Assembly: GCF_004349105.1 (NCBI RefSeq)
Contig: NZ_SMLB01000018.1
Location: 1-64,000, forward strand
Direction: 5' to 3'
Length of the DNA: 64,000 bases
Origin: Jiangella aurantiaca
GTDB taxonomy: Bacteria > Actinomycetota > Actinomycetes > Jiangellales > Jiangellaceae
In this document: piece by piece, positions 16,895 through 22,005 of the stretch
How the letters are laid out: the number at the start of each line of letters is the position of its first letter
How positions within the stretch are numbered: position 1 is the first letter of the stretch
Translations under genes and position numbers: made by a program
Notes under the pieces: generated by a model
Seen by the model: only the letters and a program-made list of their open reading frames with translations
Databases searched by the model: none
What the model was told of the DNA's origin: nothing

Positions 16895-18214
16895 ATGCCG
16901 CACGATCGTCAGGTGACGCAGACCGTGTCCGCGCCCCCTCGTCAGTCTCCCCGCGTACACCGTGCCTGGTGGGTCGCGCTCGTCGCGTTCGCAGCGCTGG
17001 TCGGGGCGGCGGCGTTCCGGGCCACGCCGAGCGTGATGATCGACCCGTTCCGCGAGGAGTTCGGCTGGTCGCACGGGACCATCTCGTTCGCGATCTCCGT
17101 CAACATCATGCTGTACGGGCTGACGTCGCCGTTCGCGGCGGCGCTGATGGAGCGGTTCGGCATGCGCCGGGTGGTGGCGGGCGCCCTGTCGCTGGTCGCC
17201 GCCGGCAGCGGCCTGACGGTGTTCATGACGGCGAGCTGGCAGCTGGTGCTGTGCTGGGGGCTGCTGGTCGGCCTGGGGACGGGGTCCATGGCGCTGGCGT
17301 TCGTCGCCACCGTCACCGATCGCTGGTTCGTCGCGCGCCGTGGGCTGGTGTCAGGGATCCTCACTGCCGGGACGGCGACCGGCCAGCTGGTCTTCCTGCC
17401 GCTGCTGGCCGTCCTGGTCGAGGACCGCGGCTGGCGCCCGGCGTCGCTGGTCGTCACCGGGGTGGCGCTGGCGGCGGTGCCGCTGGTGTGGTTCCTGCTG
17501 CGCGACCGGCCCGAGGACGTGGGGCTGCGTCCGTACGGCGCGCCGGAGTCTGACGAGCCGGTGGTGGCGCCGCCGCCAGCACCGACGGGTGCCGCGCGGC
17601 GGGCGGTCACGGCGCTCACGACGGCCGCCCGGACGAAGGCGTTCTGGCTGCTCGCCGGCACCTTCGCCATCTGCGGCGCGTCGACCAACGGCCTCGTCGG
17701 CACCCATTTCGTCCCGGCCGCCCACGACCACGGCATGCCCGTCACGACGGCGGCCGGCCTGCTCGCCGTGATCGGGATCTTCGACCTGGTCGGCACGGTG
17801 GCCTCAGGCTGGCTCACCGACCGGTTCGACCCGCGCCTGCTGCTCGGCGTGTACTACGCGCTGCGCGGGGTGTCGCTGATGGTGCTGCCGTTGCTGCTGG
17901 CCGACACGGTGCATCCGCCGATGCTGTTCTTCATCGTCTTCTACGGCCTCGACTGGGTCGCGACCGTACCGCCGACGATCGCCCTGTGCCGGGAGCACTT
18001 CGGCACGTCCGGCCCGATCGTGTTCGGCTGGGTCCTCGCGTCGCACCAGATCGGGGCCGCCCTGGTCGCGTTCGGTGCCGGCCTGACGAGGGACGCCTAC
18101 GGCAGCTACGACATGGCCTGGATCGGCGCCGGCGCCCTGTGCGCGATGGCCGCGGCGATGTCGTTGGCGATCCGCCGCCGGATGCCCGGGCCCGTCGCCG
18201 CCGGCACCGGTTAG
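16895..18214 (+). CDS. MFS transporter, 12 TM (monocarboxylate/OFA-like)
   Basis: A 439-residue transporter. The segment VMIDPFREEFGWSHGTISFA after TM1 and motif-A-like AALMERFGMRR fit the monocarboxylate/oxalate-formate antiporter-like group of MFS. A central Pro-rich cytoplasmic loop (PVVAPPPAPTG) separates the two six-helix halves. The start is uncertain: ATG 16895 is used here, GTG 16913 is equally possible. Divergent from a GlxA-type regulator that may sense its substrate, probably an organic acid or nitrogenous metabolite (inference). Confidence 0.88.
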   Translation: MPHDRQVTQTVSAPPRQSPRVHRAWWVALVAFAALVGAAAFRATPSVMIDPFREEFGWSHGTISFAISVNIMLYGLTSPFAAALMERFGMRRVVAGALSLVAAGSGLTVFMTASWQLVLCWGLLVGLGTGSMALAFVATVTDRWFVARRGLVSGILTAGTATGQLVFLPLLAVLVEDRGWRPASLVVTGVALAAVPLVWFLLRDRPEDVGLRPYGAPESDEPVVAPPPAPTGAARRAVTALTTAARTKAFWLLAGTFAICGASTNGLVGTHFVPAAHDHGMPVTTAAGLLAVIGIFDLVGTVASGWLTDRFDPRLLLGVYYALRGVSLMVLPLLLADTVHPPMLFFIVFYGLDWVATVPPTIALCREHFGTSGPIVFGWVLASHQIGAALVAFGAGLTRDAYGSYDMAWIGAGALCAMAAAMSLAIRRRMPGPVAAGTG

Positions 18215-18237
18215 CTCGTCCGCCCACCTGGGCGTCG

Positions 18238-19109
18238 TCAGCACGCCCTCGACTCGCGCAGACCTCCTTCGAAGTCGTCCGCACGCACCGCCTCGGCGAT
18301 GCGCCGGGTGGCCCGGCTGGCGCGCTGACGCGCGGCCGCCCAGCTGATGCCGCGCCGCTCGGCCGCCGCCCTCCCGCCCTCGTAGCCGGGAGCCGGCGCG
18401 TAGATGTCGGCCAGGAGGGTCGCGTCCTCCCGGCTGACCGTGCCGTTGCCCACCGCCCAGGCGAGCAGCTCGAACAGCTCGAGGTCCGGCGGGTCGGAGG
18501 CGTCGGCCGGGTCGGACGGCTCGCCGGCGCCGACGGCCGGGTGTAGCTGCTCCGGGCTGGACGGGATCTCGTGCCGCTGGTGCGCGAGCTCGGTGACGGT
18601 CAGCCGGAGCGTGTCCATGGCGATGTTCGCCGCCACCTTCACCGGCCGGCGCTCGACCGGATACCCCGCGACGACCGCCCACAACGCCGTGACGGCGGCC
18701 TGCTCCAGGCTCGCCCGCGAGTCGCGGCCCGCGTGGGTGGCGGCGATGCGGACCGCCTTGCCGAGCATGAGCTGGAACACCGACCGCAGCGCCAGCGCGT
18801 CACCGGACCGGCCGAGCCGCAGCAGCGCCAGCAACACCCCGTCGGCGTCGCGCCGGACCGCGGCCTCGAGGCCGCCCAGCGACCGGACCTCCGCCAGCCG
18901 CCAACGCGCGACGGCCGACTCGGTCGCCGGGTCGGCGCACAGCCGGACCCATTCGGCGTTCAGCCGCCCGATGAGGCTGTCGTCGCTGCGCCGCGCCGGA
19001 CCCGTCGCGCGGCCCGGGTCACTGGGCCGGCCGACCCGGCCCGGCCGTCGCCGGCGGCATAGCCATGGTGGGTCTCGGCGGGCGCGGGGGCGGTGATGGC
19101 TGCGGACAC
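18238..19109 (-). CDS. sigma-factor-like protein of unknown function, frame apparently interrupted near the 5' end
   Basis: The main frame reads from about 18990 down to 18238 (roughly 250 residues). It contains a region like sigma-70 region 2 (SLEQAAVTALWAVVAGYPVE, then RPVKVAANIAMDTLRL) and a C-terminal helix-turn-helix like sigma region 4 (AAAERRGISWAAARQRASRA). No credible start codon exists in that frame nearby. The best start, GTG at 19109 with GGAGGGAG upstream, opens another frame (SAAITAPAPAETHHGYA...) that stops near 18963. A frameshift of one base around 18965-19000 would join them. It could be a real frameshift, a sequencing error or an unrecognised start. Confidence 0.6.
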
Positions 19110-19157
19110 GGGGTGGCTCCCTCCGGGGTGGGACGCCTCCACGCTCGCGGACCGCAC

Positions 19158-19286
19158 TTGCCCGGAAACTTGCCCGAACGCTGTGTACGCAGATCAGAGC
19201 GGTTGCCCGAGTGGTTGGATCTGTTGCCCGGCCAACAACTGGCAGCGCTCGTCCACAGGCCCGGCGACTTCGCGGAGTTGTCCACA
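19158..19286. promoter_or_regulatory. four TTGCCCG repeats and two DnaA-box-like sites between divergent genes
   Basis: TTGCCCG occurs at 19158, 19170, 19203 and 19224, all in one orientation, with start-to-start spacings of 12, 33 and 21, each close to whole helical turns. TTGTCCACA, identical to the actinobacterial DnaA box consensus, lies at 19278-19286, and a one-mismatch copy TCGTCCACA at 19249-19257 on the same strand. The region separates the sigma-like gene from the 388-residue unknown gene. Confidence 0.5.
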
Positions 19287-19338
19287 TTCCGGCGGATCGC
19301 CGTTGAACCGGCCGGTCCGGCGGAGCAGTGTCGAAGCC

Positions 19339-21753
<2,415 letters not shown>

Positions 21754-21770
21754 CGGGCCCCCTGTCCGGG

Positions 21771-21829
21771 TTGATCATGGAGAAGGTCGGGTTTCCCGCG
21801 ACTCCAGAGCCGGCCTTCTCCATGATCGA
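21771..21829. repeat. dispersed hairpin F3, copy a
   Basis: A 20-bp stem beginning TTGATCATGGAGAAGG (21771-21790 with 21810-21829) has two G-T wobbles and a 19-base loop containing CCCGCGACT. It shares the stem base and loop motif with the perfect hairpin at 45557. It probably terminates the dapB transcript. The rest of the gap to 22006 shows nothing further. Confidence 0.8.
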
Positions 21830-22005
21830 GCGACCTCTGGTCGCATGCGGACCGGCCGGGCGGGTATGTCCGCGACACCCTCCTGGGAGGCCGGCCACGG
21901 CGTGCTCACCCGTTCGGCGACCCGTGGCCACCTTCCTCTTCTCACGGAGATCGAAACCGGGCAGGGTAGGGACGCACGGGGTGAGAGCGGACGGGAGATC
22001 GGGTG

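Follow-up and report, generated by a model that had tools for sequence, protein, structure and literature searches.

Competence elements of other bacteria include the ComK boxes, the sigma-X (CIN) boxes and the CRP-S sites. Like these, the element described here is one cis element placed before scattered uptake, processing and recombination genes; it differs from them in its sequence, in the phylum that carries it and in its form, a head-to-tail pair of boxes about 18 or 29 bp apart. In actinobacteria, the PafBC/RecA-NDp damage promoters carry TTGTCRGTG, a gap of eight nucleotides (N8) and TAnnnT, with a motif that overlaps the -35. These promoters resemble the present element in controlling recA-type genes within the same phylum, but their motif overlaps the -35, whereas the box pair lies upstream and has another sequence. 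DnaA also acts as a transcription factor in E. coli, B. subtilis and others, through the same box, upstream of promoters and with replication and repair genes as targets (sections of the review PMC8203912), whereas the boxes described here form a pair of constrained geometry that is common to a set of competence genes, with DnaA as the candidate binder; a text search of PMC8203912 finds neither 'competence' nor 'comEA'. Actinomycete transformation is served by the same kinds of genes, comEA-comEC and a Flp/Tad pilus, in Micrococcus luteus (portions of PMC8467076, PMC4322843 and PMC12849477), the competence regulon of which is stated in the consulted part of a 2026 paper to be currently unknown (PMC12849477). 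Those portions of the three papers give no promoter motif for M. luteus comEA/EC, and text searches of the three find no DnaA. Among the titles and abstract openings listed from the open-licence PubMed Central literature, none connects competence genes of actinomycetes with DnaA boxes. An element that reads out the regulon makes the control of natural transformation in actinomycetes directly testable. The paired boxes reported here suggest that natural transformation has a common control switch that has so far gone undescribed.

The element lies in a window of 64,000 nucleotides (the whole stretch analysed, positions 1 to 64,000 of contig NZ_SMLB01000018.1 of Jiangella aurantiaca), upstream of a gene that we refer to as the window gene. 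The features of the locus are as follows.

18238..19049, minus strand: sigma-like gene, divergent (conserved part 18241-18999; start codon uncertain)
19158..19230: heptamer array, four TTGCCCG at 19158, 19170, 19203 and 19224, as read on the plus strand (positions read from the sequence)
19249..19257, plus strand: DnaA-type box 1, distal, TCGTCCACA, one mismatch (sequence match, kept in relatives)
19278..19286, plus strand: DnaA-type box 2, proximal, perfect TTGTCCACA, 29 bp from box 1 and 52 nt to the ATG
19303..19308, plus strand: -35-like hexamer TTGAAC, weak and assigned by eye, 17 bp to the -10-like hexamer
19326..19331, plus strand: -10-like hexamer CAGTGT, 39 nt past box 2 and 7 nt to the ATG
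19339..20505, plus strand: window gene, 388 aa with a basic N-terminus, downstream of the box pair

The initial annotation of this DNA had drawn attention to four TTGCCCG heptamers at spacings of 12, 33 and 21, followed on the same strand by a perfect and a one-mismatch DnaA box. The heptamer positions are confirmed, all on one strand, as are the boxes at 19278-19286 and 19249-19257. Its placing of the heptamers on one face of the helix holds in part: with 10.5 bp to a turn, the cumulative offsets of 0, 12, 45 and 66 correspond to phases near 0, 51, 103 and 103 degrees. Conservation among close relatives, on which it had made its reading depend, is borne out, with the boxes keeping their 29-bp period and three or four of the four heptamers exact in 9/9 other orthologous loci of the genus. 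Chance clustering is ruled out for the heptamers: four TTGCCCG in 80 bp were reached in 0 of 300 dinucleotide shuffles of the window, in which the maximum was 2. Single DnaA-type boxes are ordinary in the window (5 matches against 4.59 expected), and the unusual feature is the paired arrangement that recurs elsewhere, rather than single boxes. A search of Rfam with 17000-22000 returned just two matches, to microRNA families and far under the gathering score.

Comparison of the region with the source genome at the DNA level gave six further partial matches, each of which overlaps both boxes. In this genome of 6.6 Mb, the pattern TCCACA N10-35 TGTCCACA occurs at 12 sites, 11 of them with N21 and one with N22, and the reversed pattern at none; when TTR is allowed the number rises to 13, of which 12 share one period and one is a base longer. 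Across 22 genomes of the family, gaps of 10 to 35 yield 250 sites, compared with 2 for the reversed pattern. Sites are present in 20 of these 22 genomes, the two that lack them being small and 75-81% complete. In G301, a genome in one contig, the gap is identical at all 18 sites. At 10 of 14 source-genome sites (the 13 plus one with one mismatch) a start codon lies 51-56 nt past box 2, where starts were partly picked by script to fit and an inner GTG was taken for L014 and L020; the starts of ssb, ssd, recQ and L010 lie elsewhere. An accepted start was found at 51-54 nt for 9/18 sites of G301, the other nine being without one. At L083 of this genome a start fits by number but falls inside an MMPL domain, and this fit is probably due to chance. 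Behind the pairs at L070, L071, L073 and L083 of G301 we could name no competence gene; at L071 (G301 C1:1093124), about 34 kb from dnaA, a third box-like sequence, TTATCCCCA, follows close behind the pair.

Scanning the phylum with the same pair pattern gave matches in 95 of 296 genomes, most prominently in G000 (12), G288 (15) and G204 (10), with gaps that are scattered where listed. Of the 13 sites that were read in G288, 12 lack a start at 51-56 nt; given the scattered gaps and these sites without starts, the bare pair count is unusable as a test far from the family. Some G288 sites (L284, L288, L290 and L293) form a dispersed repeat of different appearance, with TCCACA at both ends around a stretch that resembles ACGAGTG or CCAGTG, and this repeat sits away from the usual distance to gene starts.

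The genes directly downstream of the pairs appear, from their domain matches, to be largely a competence set. In the source genome, HMM searches identified RecA, SSB, a DEAD-type RecQ-like helicase and AidB behind boxes, in addition to UPF0102/YraN followed by YifB/ComM and then DprA, and Ssd (L324) in the order ssd-tadA. ComEA is also found there behind boxes, represented by its SLBB part at a contig end, and an M23 peptidase stands behind the site with one mismatch. The corresponding HMM matches in G301 are a RecQ-type helicase, SSB and AidB, ComEA then ComEC, and Ssd then TadA, accompanied by further genes for a DUF4192 protein, two Uma2 proteins, an HTH protein and an AbiEi_4 protein. The element also reaches another family: in G204, with 10 sites, five of the seven read precede SSB, Ssd, DUF559, AbiEi-type and HTH genes, with periods of 19 bp at four sites and of 34 at the AbiEi-type one; the other two are unassigned. 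The sharing of the element between genes, its geometry, its conservation and its gene content are all read directly from these loci.

Genes of AbiEi/DUF559/MTES_1575 type recur under pairs in different families, namely L014, L019 and L020 (source genome), L079 (G301), L294 and L295 (G204) and L291 (G288). The Pfam cut-off for AbiEi_4 is passed by L014 and L019, and all matches of L020 fall below it. Some of these genes have a restriction-nuclease-like C-terminal domain, and the group represents candidate new competence-linked nucleases. The two Uma2 genes of G301 (L072 and L077), also behind paired boxes, are putative endonuclease genes.

We then turn to comEA in the wider class. The slot of 50-54 nt between the box end and the in-frame start was set after the source genome and the first 30 class loci, and 80 named comEA loci served as a test with the slot fixed beforehand, a box being accepted with at most one mismatch and in coding orientation. 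Such a box ends 50-54 nt before the start in 56/80 loci, in a set that may lean towards box carriers because all 13 ComEA proteins of its query alignment came from loci with a slot box and because it comprises the best 80 of 559 matches. Permuted 9-mers fit the slot in 0.14 loci on average and in 2 at most (145 permutations), the opposite strand in 0, and the background box rate within the same loci predicts 0.20. A second slot at 61-65 accommodates 4 more loci (Mycobacterium simulans, Gordonia tangerina and two Williamsia), leaving 20/80 without a box in either, while the core TCC[AC]CA alone fits one slot or the other in 72/80. Boxes were seen in Aeromicrobium, Nocardioides, Streptomyces, Micromonospora, Salinispora, Actinomadura, Kribbella and Ornithinimicrobium, among others, and those of Mycobacteriales drift, with TGGTCCACA in M. 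simulans.

The class sample consisted of the 30 best HMM matches and 60 loci chosen among the matches listed, for family spread and before they were read, and 7/90 came from the family of the source genome. Here the first slot is occupied in 36/90 loci, the second in 9, either in 43/90 and neither in 47/90; the 7 loci that fit the second slot alone all belong to family f4. Permuted 9-mers averaged 0.23, and a single one of them reached the maximum of 11. With the relaxed core, and with starts partly picked by script to fit, 60/83 evaluable loci and 25/31 families fit, and 23/83 and 6/31 do not. For the contig-cut loci L145, L158, L173, L189, L326 and L363 the offsets were set by hand, and in all these comparisons the counts are not independent, because the loci are related.

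Two further promoters were followed in the same way. In the G301 operon that was read, ssd is followed by tadA. A coding-strand box occurs within 300 nt before the ssd HMM match in 25/30 loci, whereas permuted boxes do so in 0.55 loci on average and in 8 at most, and the opposite strand gives 0. For yraN, a coding-strand box is found upstream in 15/30 loci, with an average of about 0.6 and a maximum of 8 for permuted boxes and with 4 on the opposite strand. Two cores at a distance of 10-45 bp are present in 22/30 ssd and 19/30 yraN loci, compared with 0 or 1 for permuted cores and with 0 and 2 on the opposite strand. Taken together, these sequence comparisons indicate that the box element is widespread among actinomycetes, beyond the family in which it was found.

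The comEA loci also allowed the geometry of the element to be described. In the 103 of 170 loci with a slot box, in which box-to-hexamer distances were measured, a TAnnnT hexamer is present in 91, at 12-14 nt before the start in 90 and at 10 in one; the distance from box end to hexamer is 37-41 in 80 loci (commonest 39) and 49-51 in 11 (commonest 50). Among the 123 of 170 loci that have a slot TCCACA core and enough upstream sequence, a second upstream core lies at 17-19 bp in 20 cases, at 27-30 bp in 22 and elsewhere within 60 bp in 10. For both distances, box to -10 and box to box, the two classes thus differ by about one turn of the helix, as would be expected of an activator that touches RNA polymerase. 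In the window, the -10-like CAGTGT stands 39 nt past box 2, which is the commonest comEA distance, and both boxes are upstream of the proposed -35 and -10, without overlap. With the -10 this close to the start codon, the transcripts would be leaderless.

In the model that we propose, gene 19339-20505 would be driven by a leaderless promoter, and the two DnaA-type boxes would be the activator element upstream of it. A protein recognizing TTRTCCACA, most likely DnaA, would bind head to tail on box 2 (-61 to -53 relative to the start codon) and box 1 (-90 to -82), and would touch RNA polymerase from a helical face that stays fixed. The result would be the joint activation of genes for DNA uptake (comEA-comEC and the Tad pilus), for processing and recombination (ssb, yraN-comM-dprA, recA and recQ) and for repair or nuclease-like functions; with DnaA as the binder, transformation would be tied to the amount or the nucleotide state of the replication initiator. 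We infer each of the functional steps, namely DnaA binding, activation, leaderless transcription and induction during competence. It seems probable that the boxes are the promoter element of an undescribed, class-wide competence regulon of actinomycetes, with the window gene as one member. The element would then suggest which lineages may become competent, boxes being carried by comEA of Streptomyces, Salinispora and Nocardioides, and would nominate new competence genes, the window gene among them.

As for the protein that reads the boxes, DnaA is the likeliest, a choice that we make with somewhat better than even confidence. In Streptomyces coelicolor and M. tuberculosis, TTGTCCACA is the published DnaA box of high affinity (Table 1 in the consulted part of PMC4285127), and the oriC of the source genome carries the same 9-mer. 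Each of the 22 family genomes has a single DnaA, and the prefixes that the boxes tolerate fit DnaA as well, with TTG, TTA, CTG, TCG or CCG in 75/123 loci chosen on TCCACA alone. Binding by DnaA would link horizontal gene transfer to the control of replication. A more far-reaching version, which we put forward tentatively and would not back at even chances, has DnaA as the class-wide master activator of actinomycete competence, acting through paired head-to-tail boxes about 18 or 29 bp apart that are in phase with a leaderless promoter and jointly driving uptake, processing, recombination and nuclease genes, with the AbiEi/DUF559- and Uma2-type genes as well as the window gene as uncharacterised members; DNA import and recombination would in that case follow the state of the cell's own initiator. 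A DnaA paralogue as dedicated regulator was considered and rejected, as DnaA domain IV is found once per genome in 22/22 family genomes. It is also conceivable, with a smaller yet appreciable chance, that the promoter does belong to a competence regulon but is bound by a dedicated regulator of another kind, its likeness to DnaA boxes having arisen by convergence or competition. The first three bases of comEA boxes are loose, the core is followed by G in 78% of the 123 comEA loci, and an HTH gene stands behind the element in two families (L086 and L299, which may not be orthologous), all of which would suit such a regulator. We take Rv3660c to be ssd and Rv2415c to be comEA. Neither locus tag appears in a text search of the main text of PMC7738170, and in the consulted part of that paper the genome-wide DnaA maps, made in vitro for M. 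tuberculosis and by ChIP-seq in exponential phase for M. smegmatis, comprise five strong regions, none of them named as a com or tad promoter, which again favours a binder other than DnaA; the mapped mycobacteria belong to the order with drifted comEA boxes. Against a dedicated regulator, no candidate for it emerged, the variants TTG, TTA, YYG and TCCCCA match DnaA boxes published in the consulted part of PMC4285127, and single boxes arranged head to tail would suit a monomeric binder such as DnaA.

The remaining alternatives concern what the element does. The presence of recA, recQ, ssb and aidB among its members in the source genome would fit a regulon for DNA damage or replication stress in which the uptake genes are incidental passengers, but comEA, ssd (Tad) and yraN are the members that were tested across the class and proved to be conserved there, and we consider this reading unlikely. 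Slightly less likely still is a repressor site, at which DnaA would keep the genes off until replication arrest releases them: DnaA is known both as activator and as repressor (sections of PMC8203912), but boxes that lie upstream, are turn-spaced and stand clear of the proposed -35 and -10 suit an activator better. The initial annotation had offered a DnaA-regulated promoter, a DnaA-titrating site, an iteron plus DnaA-box control region or a relic replication origin. The first of these is the one that the evidence backs, at the level of the cis element, with DnaA as a candidate binder; the other three we regard as very improbable. The repeats do adjoin DnaA boxes here, as an iteron region would have them, but heptamers and boxes are found apart elsewhere (L308; L002-L007), and in Pfam and NCBIfam the two flanking proteins have no match to any family of replication initiators. 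A datA-like titration locus would need a dense cluster of DnaA boxes, whereas the site has two, and neither titration nor a relic origin accounts for 13 copies, 12 with one period and one a base longer, the majority of which keep a constant distance to a start codon.

In contrast to the boxes, which we assign to the promoter of the window gene, the TTGCCCG array appears to be an operator-like element of the divergent sigma-like gene, separate from the DnaA-box element. Heptamer arrays are found about 25-70 nt upstream of the sigma-like relatives L301, L302, L304 and L308, the four arrays that were read, with spacings of 12/33/20, 32/33 or 12/45; in L301, for example, the array spans 2034-2105 and the gene 2168-2968. 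L308, from genome G305, has the heptamer array and the sigma-like gene in a locus that lacks the TCCACA core. The same transporter-like gene precedes it and dapB follows, marking the corresponding place in G305, a genome with no match to the window gene. Conversely, heptamers are absent near the other box pairs read (L002-L007). As each occurs without the other, we regard heptamers and boxes as two unrelated cis elements. Genus-wide, heptamer pairs number 11-18 per genome, and on their own they are noisy, given 0-9 per genome for the reversed control.

The left-hand gene had been called sigma-like from sequence, a label that gains weak support from structure comparison and none from family models: Pfam and NCBIfam contain no useful match to the family, including none to a sigma region 2/4 model. 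A single-sequence prediction of the protein, of low confidence, is all helical, and by their titles nearly all of the 50 Foldseek matches listed for it are sigma factors or RNA polymerase-sigma complexes, with E-values of 0.065 or worse. Sequence searches of the PDB for the flanking proteins returned nothing usable (best E 0.22 and 0.11). Each member of this unannotated family that was read has a TTGCCCG array just upstream, and the family is possibly self-regulating, with an operator of its own. In the source genome, at 18960-19157 on the minus strand, the best ribosome-binding site and its GTG are out of frame with the conserved part, unlike in L053, so a frameshift or another start is possible.

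The right-hand protein had been described as basic and of no recognizable kind, and this description stands: the window gene product has a basic N-terminus, and its 388 aa match no family in Pfam or NCBIfam. Its single-sequence structure model is poor (pLDDT 38). Orthologues are present in 17/22 family genomes, counting the source genome. In other genera, all 7 orthologous loci (7/7) have at least one box, in the form TTATCCACA in 4 of them, and 2/7 have exact heptamers near the boxes. From its upstream sequence, the window gene thus appears to belong to the box-pair gene set. Finally, the recA promoter, at G000 C12:64993-65027 and thus about 1 kb past the end of the window, carries the same pair of boxes.
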